Shown: piece by piece, positions 1-10,316 of the stretch | How positions within the stretch are numbered: the first letter of the stretch is position 1 | Layout: each line of letters begins with the position of its first letter | Source: an uncultured Oscillospiraceae bacterium | GTDB lineage: Bacteria; Bacillota; Clostridia; Oscillospirales; Oscillospiraceae | Length of the DNA stretch: 41,435 bases | Reading direction: 5' to 3' | Assembly: GCA_944385705.1 (NCBI GenBank) | Contig: CALWYF010000018.1 | Span: 1-41,435 of the forward strand | The notes under the pieces: model-generated | Database searches by the model: none | Told to the model about the DNA's origin: nothing | What the model saw: the letters and a program-made list of their open reading frames with translations, nothing else | Program-made: the position numbers and the translations under genes

Positions 1-872
1 ATACGGCCGATGGACAGGTCGGTACCGGCCAGCAGGATCAGGCCGGCCACGCCCAGAGCCAGGAACATTCTGGGGGATGCCTGCTGCAAAATGTTCAGGA
101 TATTGTTCACGGTGAGCAGCTGCACATTGGGTCCCTTGACTATGGGAGTGATGATGCACAGGCCGATGAAGATAATGATAATGGCTATGTACAGGCCGTT
201 TCTCAGCAGGAAGCTGCGGCGGTTGAAGGTATACCTGTAGTTCTCCCAGCGCTGGGCCATGGACTGGCCGGGGGTAAACCTGGATATACGCAGCAGGTCG
301 ATGAGGTGATACCTGTGGGCATAGGCGGCGTGGCGCCGGTCCTTGATCTGCTGCAGCTCCTTATCCAGCTGCATTTTGGCGTCGAAGAGGCGGTTTTTAT
401 GGACGTATTTTTCGTCCTTTATCTCGTTGGCGTCCTTCAGCTTTGCCAGGGCGCTTTCGTGCTCCTTCTTCAGCTCCTCCACTGCGGCAGCATACTTTTC
501 CTTGGCGATGGCAGTCTCGGCCTTGCAGCTGGCTGCCACGGCATTGTAGTAGTCCTTTTTAAAGTGTTCTTTCAGATAGGCCTCAGCCTGAGCCACCAGG
601 GAAGAAACCTCCGCCTTGTTCCGGCTCTCTACTACCTTGGCTTCCTGGAGAGCGGCCTGGAGCTCTTCCTTCCGCTTTGCCTTTTCCTGGGGGGTATAGA
701 TTTTATCCCGCTTCAGAGTCTCCAGAGAGGTCTGTATATCCAGCACTTTGTTGGTGCCGTTCTCCCTCAGTTCGTTTAACTTTGCCTGGATATTTCCGAC
801 ATATTCGTCGATTGGCTGGCGAAGCTGTGCTTCCTGCTCAGCCGAAAGTATTATTGTTTTCTCTGCTACCAT
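1..872 (-). CDS. mglC: galactose/methylgalactoside ABC permease MglC (partial, 3' end outside window)
   Basis: About 290 residues are visible before the window edge. The start is the ATG at 872-870, eight or nine bases after GGGAG; an ATG overlapping the mglA stop (888) hits a stop after 16 codons. Residues 1 to about 220 are a charged, Ala/Lys/Glu-rich, probably coiled-coil cytoplasmic extension absent from E. coli MglC. From about residue 225 (motif YTFNRRSFLLRNGLYIAI) the permease proper begins: a first membrane helix, then ILQQASPRMFLALGVAGL and GTDLSIGR, which match the BPD_transp_2 family. It is third in mglB-mglA-mglC and would form the membrane channel. Identity rests on the family motifs plus the operon; the C-terminal half is not visible. 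Confidence 0.85.
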   Translation of the reverse strand, partial: MVAEKTIILSAEQEAQLRQPIDEYVGNIQAKLNELRENGTNKVLDIQTSLETLKRDKIYTPQEKAKRKEELQAALQEAKVVESRNKAEVSSLVAQAEAYLKEHFKKDYYNAVAASCKAETAIAKEKYAAAVEELKKEHESALAKLKDANEIKDEKYVHKNRLFDAKMQLDKELQQIKDRRHAAYAHRYHLIDLLRISRFTPGQSMAQRWENYRYTFNRRSFLLRNGLYIAIIIIFIGLCIITPIVKGPNVQLLTVNNILNILQQASPRMFLALGVAGLILLAGTDLSIGR

Positions 873-887
873 TAGTGCTTTCTCCCA

Positions 888-2396
888 TCACAGATATTTT
901 GCGCTGAGCCGCAAAAGCTCTTCCTGGTTGGTATCCTTGGTGCTGACGATGCCGGACAAATGGCCGTTGGACATTACGCCTATGCGGTTTGTGATACCCA
1001 GGATCTCCGGCATTTCCGAGGATACGACTATTATCGTCTTGCCCTGCTTGGCCATCTTTATAATCAGCTCGTATATTTCATACTTTGCGCCCACGTCGAT
1101 GCCTCGGGTAGGCTCGTCCATCATGAATATCTGGGGCTCCCTCTCCAGCCACTTGCCGAAGATTACCTTCTGCTGGTTGCCGCCGGAAAGGCTGGTTATC
1201 ATATCGTCAGGTCCCATGCACTTGGTGTGCATGATTTTAATCTGCTTATTTGTGGCCTTCACCATTTTGGAATCCGACAGGGCCGGGCCGGCTTTGTACT
1301 GCTCCAGATTTGCAATGGTTGTGTTGAAGGTCAAATCACATTTCAAAAACAGGCCGTTGGCTTTACGTTCCTCGGTTATCATGGCGAAGCCATGCTCTAT
1401 GGCTTCTCTGGCGTCGTTGAAGTTCATCAGCCGGTTTTTGAAATAGACACGGCCGGCGGCTCTGGTACGCACGCCGAAGATGGTCTCCAGCAGCTCCGTA
1501 CGTCCGGCGCCCACCAGCCCGTACAGGCCGAATATCTCTCCTTCTCTCACATCAAAGCTGATGTCCTGGAGGTAAGGGGCATATTTTGTGGACAGGTGCT
1601 GCACGGACAAAATGGTGTCGCCGGGGGTATTGTCCACCGGCGGGAAGCGGCTTTCAAGAGAGCGGCCCACCATGGCGGTGATGAGCTCGTTCATATTGGT
1701 CTCGCCTATTGGCTTGGTCATGACCAGGTTGCCGTCTCTCAGAACGGAAACCTCATCGCATATCTCGAAGATCTCATCCATCTTGTGGGATATATATATG
1801 AGAGCTATGCCCTGTTCCTTCAGCATGCGCATCATGGAAAAGAGCTTGTCCACTTCCTGTACAGTCAGGGAAGAGGTGGGCTCATCCAGAACTATCACCT
1901 GAGAATTATAGGAAATTGCCTTGGCTATCTCGCACATTTGCCGCTGGGAAACGGACATGTTCCGCATTGGCTGGCTAAGGTCCACAGTCATGCCCAGCTT
2001 GCGGAACAACTCTGCTGCTTTCTTTTTCATCCCGCCTTCGTCCACTACGCCTAAGGAATTGGTGGGATATCGGCCCAGGAACAGGTTGTCGGTCACGTTG
2101 CGCTCCAGGCACTGATTCAGCTCCTGGTGCACCATGGCGATTCCGTTTTCCAGGGCGTCCTTTGGCCCGGAGAAGCTTATCTCCTTGCCGTTAAGATATA
2201 TGGTGCCTTCGTCCTTCTGATAGGTACCGAAGAGGCATTTCATCATGGTGGATTTGCCAGCTCCGTTTTCTCCCATCAGCCCCATTACCGTCCCCCGTTT
2301 CACATCCAGATTGATGTGATCCAGCACACGGTTCCGGCCGAAGGACTTGCTCATGCCCCGTATGGACAGGACAATATCGTCTCTCGCATCTGCCAT
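888..2396 (-). CDS. mglA: galactose/methylgalactoside ABC ATPase MglA
   Basis: 502-residue double ATPase that powers sugar uptake with MglB and MglC. First domain: Walker A GENGAGKST (42-50), a weak signature MSVSQRQ (148-153), Walker B VIVLDEPTSS (about 167-176) and the switch His in YISHKMDEI. Second domain: degenerate Walker A GLVGAGRTE (about 290), a good signature LSGGNQQK (about 400) and MMDEPTRGIDVG. This pattern is typical of the MglA/RbsA class, where the second nucleotide site is altered. Start: GGGAG at 2406-2410 is only two bases from the ATG at 2402 and overlaps the GTG at 2405, but lies eight bases before the ATG at 2396, so 2396 is chosen. The stop overlaps the RBS region of mglC. 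Confidence 0.95.
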   Translation of the reverse strand: MADARDDIVLSIRGMSKSFGRNRVLDHINLDVKRGTVMGLMGENGAGKSTMMKCLFGTYQKDEGTIYLNGKEISFSGPKDALENGIAMVHQELNQCLERNVTDNLFLGRYPTNSLGVVDEGGMKKKAAELFRKLGMTVDLSQPMRNMSVSQRQMCEIAKAISYNSQVIVLDEPTSSLTVQEVDKLFSMMRMLKEQGIALIYISHKMDEIFEICDEVSVLRDGNLVMTKPIGETNMNELITAMVGRSLESRFPPVDNTPGDTILSVQHLSTKYAPYLQDISFDVREGEIFGLYGLVGAGRTELLETIFGVRTRAAGRVYFKNRLMNFNDAREAIEHGFAMITEERKANGLFLKCDLTFNTTIANLEQYKAGPALSDSKMVKATNKQIKIMHTKCMGPDDMITSLSGGNQQKVIFGKWLEREPQIFMMDEPTRGIDVGAKYEIYELIIKMAKQGKTIIVVSSEMPEILGITNRIGVMSNGHLSGIVSTKDTNQEELLRLSAKYL

Positions 2397-2477
2397 TCTC
2401 ATCACTCCCGTTTATGCAAAATAGGCTGTACAGGGGGCAACCGGCGGCATGCCCTGTCAGCCTTGGAATATGCGCTG

Positions 2478-2537
2478 GGGGAGAGGGTTCCTCCGGCACT
2501 GAGAAGTCCCCCAATGTCGGAGAATATCCCTCTCCCC
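2478..2537 (-). terminator. mglB-mglA intercistronic hairpin
   Basis: A perfect 10-bp inverted repeat, GGGGAGAGGG at 2478-2487 and CCCTCTCCCC at 2528-2537, with an inner CTCCG/CGGAG stem, lies between mglB and mglA. No T-run follows in the direction of transcription. It is better read as an mRNA-stabilising or partial-termination hairpin that keeps binding-protein expression above that of the ATPase and permease. Confidence 0.6.
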
Positions 2538-2576
2538 TGTTGCATTAGCTGTTGGTTATAATTAAGAGTTTAAATA

Positions 2577-3890
2577 TCACTGGCTGAGCAGAGCGGTGTA
2601 AGAGGCGCCGTTGTCGGTCTTGACCATGTTGATGGCAAAGGCATCATAGAGGCTGGGATCGCTCAGACGGTTAGTGATATTGGCCTCGGTCTGTCCGTCT
2701 CCGCCTATGTATTCCACCTTCAGGTTGAGCAGATCATCATATTTCTGGAGCAGGGGCTGGTAGGTGGAGCCCAGGAAGTTATCGGCGGAGTTGTAGATGT
2801 TCAGCCAAACGCTCTTCTCAGGATGTGCGGTGGCATCCAGCTGGTTGCTCACGGGAGCATACACCACGGTGGAATCCAGGAAGTCCTGATAGTTATCAGC
2901 GGTGACGGCCACGTTCAAAGCGTAGTAGGAACGGGCAGCCTCATCGTAGTAGAACACGTCGGAGCTGAGCACGTTGCCGGCATCGTCGGCGGTGCCTATA
3001 CCGGTGTCCATGTCAACGCCGTCCAGAGCGTTGCGGAGAACACGCAGGGTCAGGTAAGCCTGAACGTCGGCGTGCTGGCTGATGGTTCCGCCGTAGCCGT
3101 TGGCAATAGCGGCGACAGCGTCGGAGTTGGCGTCATAACCGAAGGTGGGAACACCCTCAGCCTGGGACCAGCTGTTGAACATGGCCATGCCCATACCGTC
3201 ATTGTTGGAGACAACCACATCTATCTGATCGCCGAAGGAAGAGGACCAGGTGAGGATGGCGTTGCCGGCGGTAGCGGCATCCCAAGTAGCGCCGGCGGAG
3301 TTCTTCATCTCCTGAGAGGCCAGCTCACGGACGACGTAAGTGGTGCCGTTTATCTCCAGAGTGCCGTCAACGACAGCAGTGGCGGAGCCGTCAACGTTGG
3401 TGCCGACAGGATCGCTGTTTATGTTGCCGTCAACCTCAACGGCAGTGCCCAGAGCGGAGCGAACGCCGCGGGTACGGGCAATGGAGTCGTTGTGACCGAT
3501 ATCGCCGATGGCCAGGACATATCCGATAACGCCGTCGCCGTTGCGGTCGATAGTGTCGATGTTGGCCTCAATGTAGTCCTTGACCATGGTTCCCTGGAGC
3601 TCAGCGCCCTGGTTGGCGTCGAAGCCCACATAGTAGGTATCCTCATTGAAGGTCAGGGCATCCATATCCAGCTCTCCGGTGGAGCTGTTGGAAGGCTGAC
3701 GGTTGAACCACACAAGGGGCTTGTCCTTGTTGGCGACTTCAGCGGGAGCTTCTGCGGCGGGAGCCTCGGCGGCGGGAGCCTCGGCGGCATCATCGGCAGG
3801 AGCCTCTTCAGCGGGGGTCTCGGAACCGCCGCAGGCCGCCAGAGCGAACACCATGGCCAGAGCCAGAAGCAGTGCAAGCAGCTTTTTCAT
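2577..3890 (-). CDS. mglB: galactose-binding lipoprotein MglB, circularly permuted
   Basis: 437 residues. Residues 1-20 are a lipoprotein signal ending LAAC, followed by an Ala/Pro/Glu linker to about residue 54. The fold then starts at KPLVWFNRQPSNSS, which corresponds to the internal E. coli strand VPVVFFNKEPS (Asn91). The order continues with YYVGFDANQG, the Ca-site-like loop DRNGDGVIG (115-123), GHNDSIARTR (133-141), WD (203), NNDGMGM (229-235), FGYDAN (250-255), and the normal C-terminal strand at about 322-338. Only after that, at 361-437, comes VWLNIYNSADNFLG...DAFAINMVK, which matches the N-terminus of mature E. coli GBP (VTIYKYDDNF...). Sugar contacts map to D370, F372, N63, H133, D135, R139, W203, N230 and D253; the equivalent of Asn256 is Gln272. 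GGAGG lies nine bases before the ATG. Role: periplasmic-side sugar capture for MglAC. Confidence 0.93.
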   Translation of the reverse strand: MKKLLALLLALAMVFALAACGGSETPAEEAPADDAAEAPAAEAPAAEAPAEVANKDKPLVWFNRQPSNSSTGELDMDALTFNEDTYYVGFDANQGAELQGTMVKDYIEANIDTIDRNGDGVIGYVLAIGDIGHNDSIARTRGVRSALGTAVEVDGNINSDPVGTNVDGSATAVVDGTLEINGTTYVVRELASQEMKNSAGATWDAATAGNAILTWSSSFGDQIDVVVSNNDGMGMAMFNSWSQAEGVPTFGYDANSDAVAAIANGYGGTISQHADVQAYLTLRVLRNALDGVDMDTGIGTADDAGNVLSSDVFYYDEAARSYYALNVAVTADNYQDFLDSTVVYAPVSNQLDATAHPEKSVWLNIYNSADNFLGSTYQPLLQKYDDLLNLKVEYIGGDGQTEANITNRLSDPSLYDAFAINMVKTDNGASYTALLSQ

Positions 3891-4155: not shown

Positions 4156-4238
4156 GATACCGTCCCCAAGGGACGGACAAATAAGAGAGCTATTCCGGTG
4201 ATTCTGCCGGACATGCGTCAAAGCTGGAGGTGGGCTCT

Positions 4239-5066
4239 GTGAGCAGGGTCATAGCCGTAGGAGATTTCTCCGCACCCGAACTAGATATATATGCGAGGCT
4301 TACGGAAAACCAGCTGGCGAACCGGGCCGACCCTGACAACGCCCTTTTTGTAGCGGAAAGTCCGGTGGTGATAGAGCGGGCCCTGGATTCCGGCTGTGTG
4401 CCGGTATCCTTTTTAATGGAAGAAAAGCATGTGGAAGGCAAGGGTCGTCCCCTGATAGAGCGCTGCGGCGACGTGCCGGTTTACGCTGCTCCCCTGGATG
4501 TGCTGGTGCAGCTCACCGGCTTTCACCTGACCCGGGGCATGCTCTGCGCCATGCGGCGGCCGAAGCTGCCTTCCGTTGACCAGGTTTGCGCAGGGGCCAG
4601 CCGTCTGGCGGTGCTGGAAAACGTGATGAACCCCACAAATATTGGAGCTATCTTTCGCTCCGCCGCCGCCCTGGGTATGGATGGGGTGCTTCTCACCGCT
4701 GCCAGCAGTGACCCTCTGTACCGCCGGGCCATAAGGGTGAGCATGGGCACGGTGTTTCAGGTGCCCTGGACCTATCTGCCCCAGGATGAGGACTGGACGC
4801 AGCTGCTGCACGTCCTGGGCTTCAAAACCGCAGCCATGGCTCTTTGGGAGGACTCGGTCACTCTCAGCGACCCGGCCCTCAACGCCGAGGAAAAGCTGGC
4901 AATAGTGATGGGCACCGAGGGGGACGGCCTGGCAGCCTCCACTATAGCCCATTGCGACTACACCGTGCGCATACCCATGGCCCATGGGGTGGACTCTCTG
5001 AACGTGGCGGCGGCCAGCGCCGTGGCCTTTTACCAGCTGGGCACAGTGAACAGGAGGGCTGAATAG
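4239..5066 (+). CDS. TrmH/SpoU-family RNA 2'-O-methyltransferase
   Basis: 275 residues. It transfers a methyl group from S-adenosylmethionine to a ribose 2'-OH in tRNA or rRNA; the exact target cannot be read from sequence. An N-terminal substrate-binding region (about 1-110) precedes the SpoU knot domain, with motif 1 NVMNPTNIGAIFRSA (about 128-142), motif 2 IVMGTEGDGLA (about 220-230) and motif 3 SLNVAAASAVAFYQ near the end. Start: GGAGG at 4226-4230 overlaps the in-frame GTG at 4230 but stands eight bases before the GTG at 4239, which is preferred. The next gene starts one base after the stop, so they are probably co-transcribed. Confidence 0.9.
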   Translation: MSRVIAVGDFSAPELDIYARLTENQLANRADPDNALFVAESPVVIERALDSGCVPVSFLMEEKHVEGKGRPLIERCGDVPVYAAPLDVLVQLTGFHLTRGMLCAMRRPKLPSVDQVCAGASRLAVLENVMNPTNIGAIFRSAAALGMDGVLLTAASSDPLYRRAIRVSMGTVFQVPWTYLPQDEDWTQLLHVLGFKTAAMALWEDSVTLSDPALNAEEKLAIVMGTEGDGLAASTIAHCDYTVRIPMAHGVDSLNVAAASAVAFYQLGTVNRRAE

Positions 5067-5327: not shown

Positions 5328-5906
5328 TCAGGCCTCGCTGAAGGGCTTCATCTGGGCAAAGAGAAAGACCCCGCAGGACACCAGCCAGTAGCAGTTGTAT
5401 AGCAGCTCCTCCAGACTCAGCTTTTTCCCGTCCTGGTACCACTTGGATATGATGCCGCTTATGGCGGAGATGCTGAAGGTCAGGGCATAGTCAAAGTTGG
5501 GCGTGTCCGGCTCCAGGCCGAATATCTTGGTAAAGATAGGAGCGTAAAAAACCTTCAGCTTTTCCACGAATCCGGAATTCAGGCCGTTGGAGATGATGAA
5601 AAAGAGCTTTTCCCCTTCGTCCTCCAGGATGCCCGCATAGCGTTTGGCAAACTCCTTCAGACTCATGGGAAAGCCGCCGGGGAAGACCTGGGATATTTTT
5701 TTCTTAACATCCTCCAGCATCTGCTTTTCCGCCTGGTCCCTCAGGTCGTTCATGTCCATGAAGTACTGGTAGAAGGTGCTGCGGTTGACCCCGGCAGCCT
5801 TGGAAACACTGATAACACTGAGTTTTTCCCTGTTCATCAGCAGCTTCCAATAGGCGTCCGTAATACCCCTGCGGGTTTTCTCTGTCAGTTCCGGCTGCTT
5901 GTTCAT
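5328..5906 (-). CDS. TetR/AcrR-family transcriptional regulator
   Basis: 192 residues. The N-terminal helix-turn-helix covers about residues 12-58 (TRRGITDAYWKLLM, then VSKAAGVNRSTFYQYF), followed by an all-helical ligand-binding or dimerisation domain of unknown ligand. An in-frame extension to 6044 is rejected because GGAGG lies seven bases before the ATG at 5906 and the extension is not TetR-like. The gene is divergent from the giant activase, with 141 bases between the starts, which makes that gene and itself the likely targets. Possible operators are noted in the intergenic region. Confidence 0.88.
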   Translation of the reverse strand: MNKQPELTEKTRRGITDAYWKLLMNREKLSVISVSKAAGVNRSTFYQYFMDMNDLRDQAEKQMLEDVKKKISQVFPGGFPMSLKEFAKRYAGILEDEGEKLFFIISNGLNSGFVEKLKVFYAPIFTKIFGLEPDTPNFDYALTFSISAISGIISKWYQDGKKLSLEELLYNCYWLVSCGVFLFAQMKPFSEA

Positions 5907-5918
5907 ACACTTTCCTCC

Positions 5919-5998
5919 ATCCGACACAAAAAAGGATATTGTTGGTTGATAATCAAAAACTGGAATGCTACAATCTATTATACGGCAGTCTGTCGGAT
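5919..5998. promoter_or_regulatory. possible TetR operator half-sites
   Basis: ATCCGACA at 5919-5926 and TGTCGGAT at 5991-5998 form an 8-bp inverted repeat flanking the divergent promoter region. A second short palindrome, TTGATAATCAA (5946-5956), overlaps the activase -35. Either could be the TetR binding site; sequence alone cannot decide. Confidence 0.3.
5946..5974 (+). promoter_or_regulatory. promoter of the activase gene
   Basis: TTGATA at 5946-5951 and TACAAT at 5969-5974 with a 17-base spacer, about 70 bases upstream of the ATG at 6048. Confidence 0.65.
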
Positions 5999-6047
5999 GA
6001 TTCAAGACTTTGTATTTTTTTGCTTCTTTCGGGAGGTTGAACACATA

Positions 6048-9000
6048 ATGTATCGTTACAGAGCCGGAATAGACATCGGCTCAACCACAGTAAAACTGGT
6101 CGTTTTAAATGAAGAGGGCGATATCCTTTTCAGCGATTACCGCCGCCACCGGGCCCACACCCAGGAGACTCTGGCGGAGCTGCTCTCCGACGCCCGGAAG
6201 ATAACCGGAGAATGTGAGCTCACGGCGGGCATAACCGGCTCCGGCTCAATAAATCTGGGCAAGGCTCTGGATATAAAATTCGTACAGGAGGTCGTGGCTG
6301 TGGCCACGGCTTTGCAGCATACCGCACCCCAGACCGACGTAGCCATAGAGCTGGGGGGCGAGGATGCCAAGATAATATACTTCACCGGCGGGCTGGAAGA
6401 GCGGATGAACGGCGTATGTGCCGGAGGCACCGGCTCCTTTATAGACCAGATGGCCTCTCTTCTCCAGACCGACGCCGCCGGGCTGGACGCCGAGGCGACC
6501 AACTATAAGCAGATATACCCCATTGCCGCCCGCTGCGGTGTCTTTGCCAAGACGGATATCCAGCCCCTTATAAACGACGGGGCCACAAAAGCCGACCTGG
6601 CTGCCTCCATTTTCCAGGCAGTGGTGAACCAGACCATCTCCGGTCTGGCCTGCGGCAAGCCCATTCGGGGCTGCGTAGCCTTTCTGGGCGGACCTCTCCA
6701 CTTCCTGCCGGAGCTGAAGAAGGCTTTTATACGCACCCTGCATCTCACTCCCGAGACCACCGTGGACCCGGAAAACTCCCACCTCTTTGCCGCTTTGGGC
6801 GCAGCCCTGGAGGCAGAGGATGCCGAAAGCCACAGCATGGATGAACTCATAGAGCGCCTTTCCTCCGGTGTGAAGATGAACTTCGAGCTAAAGCGCCTGC
6901 CCGCCCTCTTTGCCGATGAGGCGGAATACGAGTCTTTCTGCCGCCGCCATGAGAAGGCTGTGGTGCAGAAGGCCCCGGTGGAGACTTACAGCGGCGACTG
7001 CTTTTTGGGCATAGACGCCGGCTCTACCACCACCAAGCTGGCCCTTATCGGCTCGGAAGGTCAGCTGCTCTATTCCTACTATTCAAATAACCAGGGGAAC
7101 CCCGTGCGCACCGCCATGGAGGCCATCGACAAGCTGCGCTCTCTGCTTCCTGAGAGGGCCCGCATAGTCCGCTCCTGCTCCACCGGCTACGGCGAGGACC
7201 TGCTGAAATCCGCCTTCGCCCTGGACGAGGGGGAGGTGGAGACCATTGCCCACTGCACCGCCGCCGCCTTTTTTGACCCACAGGTGGACTGTGTGCTGGA
7301 CATCGGCGGCCAGGACATGAAGTGCATAAAGCTGAAGAACAACTCCGTGGACACCGTGCTTCTGAACGAGGCCTGTTCCTCCGGCTGCGGCTCCTTTATC
7401 GAAAACTTTGCCAATTCCCTGGGCTACAGCGCAGAGGACTTTGCAAAGGAGGCCCTCTTTGCCCAGAACCCAGTGGACCTGGGCACCCGCTGCACCGTGT
7501 TCATGAATTCCAACGTAAAGCAGGCCCAGAAGGAAGGGGCCTCCGTTCAGGACATCTCCGCCGGTCTTGCCTATTCCGTCATCAAAAACGCCCTTTATAA
7601 GGTCATAAAGCTCACCGATCCCTCCCAGCTGGGCAGTCATATCGTTGTCCAGGGCGGCACCTTCTATAATAAAGCGGTGCTCCGGGCCTTTGAGGCCATA
7701 GCCGGGGTGGAGGTCACCTGCCCGGATATCTCCGGCATAATGGGTGCCTTCGGCGCCGCTCTCATCGCCCGGGAACGCTATACCGGCCAGGAGAGCAGCA
7801 TGCTGCCCCTGGAGGAGATTGTCAATCTCAAGTACACCACCGCTACCGCCCGCTGCGGCCGCTGCTCCAACAACTGCCTGCTGACGGTAAACAAGTTCCC
7901 CGGCGGCCGCCGCCATGTCACTGGCAACCGCTGCGAGCGGGGCTTGGGCGGCTCTTCTCAGCTGAAGCGGGCCCCCAGCATGGTGGAATACAAGCAGCAG
8001 CGTATCTTCGACTATCCCCCTCTGGAGGATGCTCCCCGGGGCGTCATTGGTATACCCAGGGTGCTGAACATGTGGGAGAACTACCCCTTCTGGGCCACCT
8101 TCTTCAAGGCCCTGGGCTTCAGAGTGGAGCTCTCTCCCCTCTCCTCCCGGAAGATTTACCAGCTGGGCATGGAGTCCATCCCCTCGGAGTCGGAGTGCTA
8201 TCCGGCAAAGCTGGCCCACGGCCATGTCCAGTGGCTCATCGACCAGGGCATCAAGACTATCTTCCACCCCTGCGTCTTTTACGAGCACCAGGAGACCCCG
8301 GGAGCCCAGAACCACTATAACTGCCCTGTGGTAGTCTCCTACCCTGAGAACCTGAAAAACAATGTGGAGGCCGTGGCCGACGGGGACGTGCGCTATATCC
8401 GCCCCTTCATAGCCTTTACCTGCGAGCGGGTGGCCGCCGACCGGCTGGTGAAGCTCTGCCGGGAAGAGTGGGACATTCCGGAGCAGGAAGTGCGCCATGC
8501 GGTAAAGCTGGCCTGGGCCGAGCAGCACCGGGCCAAGGACGACGTGCGCCGTCGGGGCGCAGAGCTTTTGAAAGAGATGGAAGAGCAGGGCGGCCGGGGC
8601 ATAGTCCTGGCGGGACGTCCCTACCACATCGACCCGGAGATAAACCACGGTATCCCCCAGCTCATAGCCTCCTACGGCCTCACCGTCTTTACCGAGGACA
8701 GCCTTCCCATAGACTTTGTCCCCGGCCGCCCCATCCGGGCCAACGACCAATGGGTCTACCACTCCCGGCTTTATACCGCGGCGGAGTTCGTCTCCCACCG
8801 GGACGACCTGGAGCTCATCCAGCTCAACTCCTTCGGCTGCGGTCTGGATGCCGTCACCACCGACCAGGTCTCCGAGATATTGGAGGGCAGCGGCAAGCTG
8901 TACACCGTTTTGAAGATAGACGAGGTGAACAATCTGGGCGCCGCCCGTATCCGGGTGCGCAGCCTTATCGCCGCCATGAACATGCGCCGGGACAAGAATG

Positions 9001-10316
9001 TCCACGCCAAGCCCCGGCCCGCTGCATACCACCGCACCGTGTTCACCCAGCAGATGCGCCGGGAGGGCTGGACCATCATCGCCCCCCAGATGAGCCCCAT
9101 ACACTTTGACATTTTGGAACCGGTATTCCGCAAGCACGGCTACAACGTGGTCATTCTGGATAACGACAACCGCTCTGCCATAGACACGGGACTTAAGTAC
9201 GTGAACAACGACGCCTGCTTCCCCGCCATGACCGCCGTGGGCCAGATAATGGAGGCTGTGCTCTCCGGCCGTTACGACACCGACCATCTGGCCATAGCCA
9301 TGACCCAGACCGGCGGCTGCTGCCGGGCCAGCAACTATGTGGGCTTTATACGCCGGGCCTTGGACAAGGCCGGGCTGTCACACATCCCCGTCATCTCCCT
9401 CAATGCCAACGGCATGGAGAAGAATCCCGGCTTCAAGCTCTCCCCCTCCCTCATTCTGGACGCCGGCCATGCCGTGGTCTATGGAGATTTGTTCATGCGC
9501 TGCCTGTACCGGGTGAGGCCCTACGAGCTCACTCCCGGCTCCGCCAATGAGCTGTACATAAAGCTGAGGGACAAGTGCATCCTCTCCCTGACCCAGCCCG
9601 GCGCCGCTCCCGGCTACAAGGAGCTTTGCCATGAGATAGTGGAGAGCTTTGACAAGTTCCCCATAGATGAGAGCATCCGCAAGCCCAGAGTGGGCGTGGT
9701 GGGCGAGATACTGGTGAAGTACATGCCTCTGGCCAACAACCACCTGGTGGACCTGCTGGAGAGCGAAGGGGCAGAGGCGGTGGTGCCGGATCTGATGGAC
9801 TTCCTCAACTACTGCGTGTACAACAACGACTATAAGCACCGCTTCCTGGGCAAGAGCTGGACCTCCTCCGCCACGGCAAAGCTGGGGGTGTCCATCATCC
9901 GCAGCCTGCGCAAGCCCGCCCTGGAGGCCCTGGAAAAGAGCCGCCGTTTTGAGCCCCCCATGCCCATTGAGAAGATAGCGGAACTGGCAAAGCCCTTCCT
10001 GTCCATCGGCAACCAGTACGGCGAGGGCTGGTTCCTCACCGGTGAGATGGCAGAGCTTATTCTCAGCGGCACCCCCAACATCGTGTGCATCCAGCCCTTC
10101 GCCTGCCTGCCAAACCACGTGGTGGGCAAGGGCGTCATCAAAGCCCTGCACAAGACCTATCCCAGGGCCAACATTGCCGCCGTGGATTACGACCCCGGCG
10201 CCAGCGAGGTCAACCAGCTCAACCGCATAAAGCTGATGCTCTCCGCCGCCATGAAGGACCTGCATCATCAGCAGGAGCTGGAGGAACAGTCCGCCGCCTG
10301 CGCTGCGGGAAAGTAA
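6048..10316 (+). CDS. giant 2-hydroxyacyl-CoA dehydratase activase-like protein (BcrAD/BadFG x2 + DUF2229)
   Basis: 1422 residues, the usual size for this fused family. Two ASKHA-type ATPase modules are visible: residues 1 to about 270 (GIDIGSTTVKLVVL; CAGGTGSFIDQMA) and about 317-590 (GIDAGSTTTKLALI; EACSSGCGSFIEN, where the cysteines resemble those holding the inter-subunit 4Fe-4S cluster of HgdC-type activators). A Cys cluster, CGRCSNNC (about 602), starts a DUF2229-type domain (ESECYPAKLAHGHVQWL; HPCVFYE). The C-terminal part has dehydratase-like Cys motifs (TQTGGCCRASNY, ACLPNHVVGKG). Known relatives use ATP hydrolysis to inject an electron into radical dehydratases, but no dehydratase subunits lie nearby, so the substrate is unknown. 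The ATG at 6048 is chosen, 11 bases after GGGAGG; an in-frame extension upstream overlaps the promoter. Confidence 0.88.
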   Translation: MYRYRAGIDIGSTTVKLVVLNEEGDILFSDYRRHRAHTQETLAELLSDARKITGECELTAGITGSGSINLGKALDIKFVQEVVAVATALQHTAPQTDVAIELGGEDAKIIYFTGGLEERMNGVCAGGTGSFIDQMASLLQTDAAGLDAEATNYKQIYPIAARCGVFAKTDIQPLINDGATKADLAASIFQAVVNQTISGLACGKPIRGCVAFLGGPLHFLPELKKAFIRTLHLTPETTVDPENSHLFAALGAALEAEDAESHSMDELIERLSSGVKMNFELKRLPALFADEAEYESFCRRHEKAVVQKAPVETYSGDCFLGIDAGSTTTKLALIGSEGQLLYSYYSNNQGNPVRTAMEAIDKLRSLLPERARIVRSCSTGYGEDLLKSAFALDEGEVETIAHCTAAAFFDPQVDCVLDIGGQDMKCIKLKNNSVDTVLLNEACSSGCGSFIENFANSLGYSAEDFAKEALFAQNPVDLGTRCTVFMNSNVKQAQKEGASVQDISAGLAYSVIKNALYKVIKLTDPSQLGSHIVVQGGTFYNKAVLRAFEAIAGVEVTCPDISGIMGAFGAALIARERYTGQESSMLPLEEIVNLKYTTATARCGRCSNNCLLTVNKFPGGRRHVTGNRCERGLGGSSQLKRAPSMVEYKQQRIFDYPPLEDAPRGVIGIPRVLNMWENYPFWATFFKALGFRVELSPLSSRKIYQLGMESIPSESECYPAKLAHGHVQWLIDQGIKTIFHPCVFYEHQETPGAQNHYNCPVVVSYPENLKNNVEAVADGDVRYIRPFIAFTCERVAADRLVKLCREEWDIPEQEVRHAVKLAWAEQHRAKDDVRRRGAELLKEMEEQGGRGIVLAGRPYHIDPEINHGIPQLIASYGLTVFTEDSLPIDFVPGRPIRANDQWVYHSRLYTAAEFVSHRDDLELIQLNSFGCGLDAVTTDQVSEILEGSGKLYTVLKIDEVNNLGAARIRVRSLIAAMNMRRDKNVHAKPRPAAYHRTVFTQQMRREGWTIIAPQMSPIHFDILEPVFRKHGYNVVILDNDNRSAIDTGLKYVNNDACFPAMTAVGQIMEAVLSGRYDTDHLAIAMTQTGGCCRASNYVGFIRRALDKAGLSHIPVISLNANGMEKNPGFKLSPSLILDAGHAVVYGDLFMRCLYRVRPYELTPGSANELYIKLRDKCILSLTQPGAAPGYKELCHEIVESFDKFPIDESIRKPRVGVVGEILVKYMPLANNHLVDLLESEGAEAVVPDLMDFLNYCVYNNDYKHRFLGKSWTSSATAKLGVSIIRSLRKPALEALEKSRRFEPPMPIEKIAELAKPFLSIGNQYGEGWFLTGEMAELILSGTPNIVCIQPFACLPNHVVGKGVIKALHKTYPRANIAAVDYDPGASEVNQLNRIKLMLSAAMKDLHHQQELEEQSAACAAGK

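Follow-up and report, generated by a model that had tools for sequence, protein, structure and literature searches.

A natural circular permutation of the galactose/glucose-binding protein in an uncultured Oscillospiraceae bacterium, with an extended permease as its partner

Introduction

The question that this locus raises is whether a galactose-binding protein (GBP) whose segments are encoded in a changed order is a real natural form, whether that form has been described before, and what accompanies it in the genome. The stretch of DNA analysed, hereafter the window, comprises 41,435 nucleotides at the start of a contig of a 2.26-Mb draft genome (95 contigs) of an uncultured Oscillospiraceae bacterium. 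The initial annotation, made from the sequence, had placed an open reading frame at 2577-3890, which is indeed there and lies on the minus strand, and had read it as a natural circular permutation of GBP for which no published case was known. This last point does not stand, since the same permutation is already found in Tp0684 of Treponema pallidum (TpMglB-2, PDB 5JX2), the structure of which was solved by Brautigam et al. (2016; PMC4990184). In that paper, the binding of glucose by Tp0684 is established by calorimetry and fluorimetry, together with a ligand-driven compaction, the same residue map is tabulated for TpMglB-2, with the change of N256 to Gln included, and a “Type Ic” class is proposed with Tp0684 as its founder. 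Its homologues come mostly from treponemes and from Gram-positive bacteria, for the greater part of the gut. When the literature was searched for further natural examples or for subsequent work on Type Ic proteins, PMC4990184 was the sole relevant paper among those listed. The permutation as such is therefore not new, and what is added here is the argument on homology, the tail of the permease and the plasmid-borne copies in two phyla.

Results

The mglBAC locus

The operon at the start of the window, with the parts of its binding-protein gene, is made up as follows:

3..872, minus strand: mglC, permease, 290 aa seen of about 553, cut by the contig start (by comparison with the relative at 8005-9666 of locus L024, 553 aa)
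888..2405, minus strand: mglA, sugar ABC transporter ATPase, 505 aa (open reading frame and a 98.8%-identical copy in locus L024)
2577..3890, minus strand: mglB, permuted galactose/glucose-binding lipoprotein, 437 aa, ATG start (open reading frame, match to TpMglB-2, PF13407 and PF18610)
3728..3890, minus strand: mglB codons 1-54, putative lipoprotein signal, with LAAC at residues 17-20, followed by an acidic/alanine-proline linker (sequence)
2871..3728, minus strand: mglB codons 55-340, GBP from canonical strand 4 to the C-terminus, now leading the chain (hhalign, invariance)
2580..2819, minus strand: mglB codons 358-437, the moved piece, corresponding to the N-terminus of canonical GBP (PF18610, profile match, invariance)

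The order mglB-mglA-mglC is found in the relatives whose contigs extend far enough, and the combination of a single two-domain ATPase with a single permease is that of an Mgl-type sugar ABC importer. The copy of mglA in L024 scores 664 bits with the MglA model NF008215, under its cut-off of 828. A scan for promoters and terminators gave no minus-strand promoter-like site upstream of mglB and no terminator-like site, and the G+C content of positions 1-3890 (0.550, vs 0.539 for the remainder of the window) gives no sign of a recent import of this part. Beyond mglB, the window continues with genes that, by their look alone, may encode an rRNA methyltransferase of the SpoU kind (4230-5066, plus strand), a TetR-type regulator (5328-6044, minus strand) and a large protein resembling 2-hydroxyacyl-CoA dehydratase activators (5946-10316, plus strand).

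The lipobox pattern is present in 87 of 97 aligned rows (94 distinct loci, the window gene being represented three times and one other gene twice), and the LAAC motif of the window protein, with its Cys, predicts a bacterial lipoprotein with the lipid anchor at Cys20; many other open reading frames of the same genome match the signal and linker of MglB, and not the remainder of the chain. Among the Pfam families, PF13407 covers residues 82-291 and PF18610 residues 358-428, the latter with 138 bits against a cut-off of 36.8. The NCBIfam model of MglB (NF011924) reaches 88 bits, in two stretches, against a cut-off of 420, which is to be expected because the model is written in canonical order and the protein is a permuted relative. 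That the genome might encode a canonical MglB besides this one was considered and rejected, as NF011924 matched this gene alone there and the other matches of the protein lie mostly in its signal and linker.

Evidence for the circular permutation

With TpMglB-2 the protein is colinear: residues 54-435 align with 19-385 of 5JX2 in one stretch (phmmer against the PDB, E 8.8e-87), whereas the canonical MglB chains of the PDB match it either in two stretches or in a single mid-chain stretch. The relation to the canonical order was followed with hhalign in three sets, namely (i) 30 non-redundant permuted sequences against 10 canonical ones written twice in a row, (ii) the same with the canonical sequences increased to 27, and (iii) with Treponema saccharophilum and Agathobacter rectalis included. 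In all three, the permuted profile and the doubled canonical profile form one alignment across the join, passing through canonical positions 79-309 and then 1 to 67-70, and a canonical profile reordered as in the permuted chain scores better than one in natural order, both with the 27 canonical sequences (230.7 vs 217.0) and with T. saccharophilum and A. rectalis included (260.3 vs 244.7). Residues 55-340 correspond to canonical 79-308 (E 7.8e-25) and the counterpart of the canonical N-terminus is found at residues 362-428. The break falls, as had been proposed, past the helix that follows the AINMV strand and ahead of the WFNRQPS strand. The natural circular permutation of the galactose/glucose-binding protein is confirmed for MglB of the window, its profiles in permuted order aligning in one piece. 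In its colinearity with TpMglB-2, and in having the first three strands of the canonical N-lobe at the C-terminus, the protein agrees with the circularly permuted Type Ic (Type I/Cluster B) class, to which its sequence would assign it.

A different matter is the descent of the moved piece. In PMC4990184, its identity to the canonical N-terminus is given as 13% only and its origin is left open, one possibility there being that the C-terminal piece derives from some other gene and acquired the shape of the GBP N-terminus by convergence. With this possibility agree that low identity, the fact that PF18610 is a Pfam family of its own, and the profile of one canonical subgroup (the L146 type, 8 sequences), which alone gives no match with the moved piece (P 0.52), its best alignment nevertheless lying at the same place. 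The piece is also weakly conserved, its profile match alone standing at a P of about 7e-4. However, segment 341-437 by itself finds the full-length canonical profile at the predicted place, always at canonical 4-70, in the three sets (P 2.4e-3, 6.3e-4 and 7.5e-4, respectively); the P falls to between 9e-5 and 7e-5 against the N-terminal canonical piece alone, and the canonical chain deprived of that piece gives no match (P 0.36-0.43). When the canonical set is split in three, the two other subgroups match with P 0.0058 and 0.006. None of 300 column-shuffled controls with the 27 canonical sequences reached the score of the segment (best shuffle 24.0 vs 28.9), nor did any of 500 in the third set (22.9 vs 28.6). 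To this is added the retention of the contacts D14 and F16, in sequence and in register, with the same D and F in the piece of T. saccharophilum. We regard convergence of a foreign piece as improbable, and the profile evidence favours the other of the two origins left open in PMC4990184; with moderate confidence, and from sequence comparison, the moved piece would be homologous to the canonical N-terminus.

The predicted structure agrees with this arrangement. The AlphaFold2 model of MglB (best of five, mean pLDDT 71.3, pTM 0.72; the other four models 43-62) aligns by Foldseek over its whole length with 5JX2 and with 6BGC/6BGD (384-391 columns, 40-41% identity, TM 0.71-0.78). The galactose-binding protein chains among the matches listed align over 284-295 columns and rank after 5JX2 and its variants, the shorter alignment being expected because the program depends on chain order and the chain is permuted. 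At the C-terminus the model would place strands at 306-311, 337-342 and 364-369 (numbering of the mature construct). The stretch at about 330-360 lacks a canonical counterpart, and there the model is poor, with pLDDT of about 49-55 in places. The initial annotation had named two outcomes that would have spoken against it, an extra domain formed by the moved segment or the lack of a match of this segment to the GBP N-terminus; what is found is a model aligned along its whole length with 5JX2 and a segment matched by profile, each of the two segments aligning separately with GBP and the moved one at canonical 4-70.

Sugar contacts and ligand

The contacts with the sugar were mapped from Table 2 of PMC4990184 (EcMglB/TpMglB-2), read through the phmmer alignment between TpMglB-2 and the window protein. 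N63, H133, D135, R139, W203, N230, D253 and Q272 lie in codons 55-340, and D370 and F372 in the moved piece; these are the residues already named in the initial annotation, and the ten positions are invariant in the 97 aligned rows, as are D115, N117 and D119 of the Ca-loop. Nine of the ten are identical to those of E. coli, and N256 is replaced by Gln as in TpMglB-2.

Could the protein, permuted as described, bind something other than glucose or galactose? The Gln throughout at the N256 position might point that way, together with the 88 bits with the NCBI MglB model against 420 and with the models of MglA and MglC, likewise under their cut-offs. Yet TpMglB-2 carries the same Gln and binds glucose, according to PMC4990184, and the remaining nine contacts are as in E. 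coli, including D14, which in TpMglB-2 is Asn. We consider another ligand unlikely, although a little less so than the foreign origin of the moved piece; by analogy with TpMglB-2, for which this has been shown, MglB of the window likely captures glucose/galactose for import. The gene is functional-looking, and its class is one already described.

Distribution of the permuted form

A scan of 84,980 species genomes gave 475 places encoding a relative, of which the best 80 were kept; all 80 are full-length and permuted, and the closest among them belong to uncultured Oscillospiraceae and Eubacteriales (95-97% identity). These counts also bear on the notion that the permuted order is an artefact of assembly or sequencing, for which nothing speaks except that the contig ends 2.6 kb from the gene: the same order is present in the 80 kept loci of other genomes (the best 80 of 475), in 13 further genomes of the family and in the solved structures. 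Since independent genomes agree, the artefact was rejected, and we give it practically no credence. In one locus (L194), an apparent fusion of binding protein and ATPase contains a run of unknown residues; it was rejected as such and treated as a gap.

PF18610 is present in 15 of the 250 genomes of the family of the window, in 2 of 245 of the class and in 2 of 299 of the phylum, and in none of the 4 genomes of other members of the genus among those listed; its distribution is therefore patchy. No relative was found in viral contigs. Permuted copies are borne by plasmids in two phyla, in Agathobacter rectalis and Treponema saccharophilum, and these copies, taken with the shallowness of the Bacillota crown in the trees, suggest horizontal transfer. 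On the A. rectalis plasmid (L208, 1-1753 and 4878-9432), genes annotated as integrase and IS91-type transposase are found at a distance of about 3 kb from the permuted mglBAC. On plasmid pTS2 of T. saccharophilum (L207, 5914-10402), about 2 kb downstream of the permuted operon, there are an annotated AAC(3)-family acetyltransferase and a HicAB pair.

An extended MglC permease

Residues 1 to about 215 of the window MglC constitute a hydrophilic, helical N-terminal extension, and this is a constant trait of the permuted systems: among the loci with permuted mglB, 65 of the 66 permeases uncut by a contig end have 212-227 additional aa ahead of their MglC-like part, whereas in the 66th (L093) a frame break leaves the extension in the preceding open reading frame. 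In that same locus (6523-9701) mglA reaches only 225 aa, and this, like the frame break in mglC, may be due to sequencing error or decay. The permease of L147 (553 aa) also has the extension. In contrast, none of the 25 operons in which mglB is canonical and mglC complete (L134-L146, L179-L181, L183-L191) has it, their permeases measuring 328-367 aa. Strong matches to the extension (E 4e-63 or better) occur in 16 of the 250 family genomes, that is, all 15 with PF18610 plus one (G504) whose contig starts about 1.1 kb upstream of the permease; weaker matches (E 2e-4 in one genome of the family, G378, and E 8e-4 in two of the class) seem to reflect coiled coil matched by chance.

The permuted operon of T. 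saccharophilum has a permease of 562 aa with an extension of similar length, whose resemblance to the others is distant (blastp E 1e-6 over 88 aa); its HMM match (E 6.5e-8 for 1000 sequences) has a composition-bias figure of 22.8 and should therefore be read with care. The extension is predicted to form helices at 11-37, 40-55, 61-144 and 148-194, with pLDDT 86-93 over residues 11-190, and, being N-terminal to the first membrane helix, it is presumably cytoplasmic. By itself it belongs to no Pfam family, and its four NCBIfam matches are far under their cut-offs; MglC found no match by sequence in the PDB, and its model, poor in the membrane part, gave nothing in Foldseek at 0.001 (best E 0.073). 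Literature searches found no description of the extension, the word “coiled” does not occur in the text of PMC4990184, and the tailed permease is absent from the passages of that paper covered here.

Discussion

The proposed importer

With high confidence, the window gene is regarded as the substrate-binding lipoprotein of an Mgl-type (CUT2) importer and a permuted member of Type Ic. The segment order, the homology of both segments, the conserved contacts and the operon are supported by the present analysis. In the chain that we propose, a lipid anchor at Cys20 and a flexible linker would lead to a chain starting at strand 4 of the canonical N-lobe, which would run through the C-lobe and back, making a fourth hinge crossing via an added connector (about residues 330-360), and the N-lobe would be completed by the piece that opens canonical GBP. 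With glucose (or galactose) bound, the lobes would close in the manner of GBP and pass the sugar on to MglC/MglA. The fourth hinge, the closing motion and the glucose binding are here carried over from TpMglB-2 by analogy.

Origin of the permutation

In a tree of MglA and MglC with Treponema, built from 15 permuted and 25 canonical operons, all permuted systems, T. saccharophilum included, are set apart from the canonical ones as a single clade (100% support) on a long stem of 0.75 substitutions per site (1.21 without Treponema); as the rooting is by midpoint only, no sister canonical group is claimed. The classical route to a circular permutation is the tandem duplication of a gene and subsequent loss of its outer parts. 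We infer that in this case the permutation would have arisen once, when an mglB gene was duplicated in tandem and then truncated, that it would predate the split between the Treponema and Bacillota copies, and that a horizontal spread would have followed. In locus L192 two canonical sugar-binding protein genes stand in tandem (1251-2348 and 2458-3579), 109 bases apart, and a duplication of that type is a possible source of a permuted gene. No intermediate, whether a duplicated or a half-deleted gene, was seen among the loci read.

A more ambitious reading joins both traits: permuted MglB and tailed MglC could be one importer subclass, the two having arisen on the same stem before the Treponema/Bacillota split, having remained together since, and cooperating, with the importer spreading in gut Bacillota partly on plasmids. 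We put this forward tentatively and consider it rather doubtful as a whole. For example, the tail might adapt the permease, in its assembly or its gating, to a binding protein whose tether is at strand 4. If tail and permutation were interdependent, the permuted class would be a functional subclass of importers, beyond a curiosity of folding, and the tailed permease as a constant partner offers a testable lead.

How proteins change topology is a question for which natural permutants are useful when, as here, an unpermuted sister is known from the same operon context. The present family offers some 100 relatives from cultured and uncultured gut bacteria, in addition to a solved founder, and what is new in it is the argument for homology of both pieces with their canonical counterparts.

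Comparison with known systems

The closest known system is TpMglB-2 (5JX2, 6BGC, 6BGD; “Type Ic” or “Cluster Bc”), which has in common with the window MglB the break point, the order of the segments, the map of sugar contacts with Gln for N256, the Ca-loop and the colinearity of the whole chain. The differences are that the D14 position is Asp in the Bacillota copy and Asn in TpMglB-2, and that the anchoring linker is longer in the former; the divergence between the two is at a level of 37 to 45%, comparable to that of the T. saccharophilum copy (43% identity). PF18610 (Peripla_BP_7), for which one paper was found naming it, in an accession list, models the moved C-terminal piece and that piece alone. 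The canonical MglB/GBP of E. coli and of Bacillota (L104-L116, L146, L178-L191) share with the window MglB both lobes, the contacts and the operon with MglA and MglC, but keep the unpermuted order; in all 25 canonical operons whose mglC is complete, the permease has 328-367 aa and lacks the N-terminal extension.
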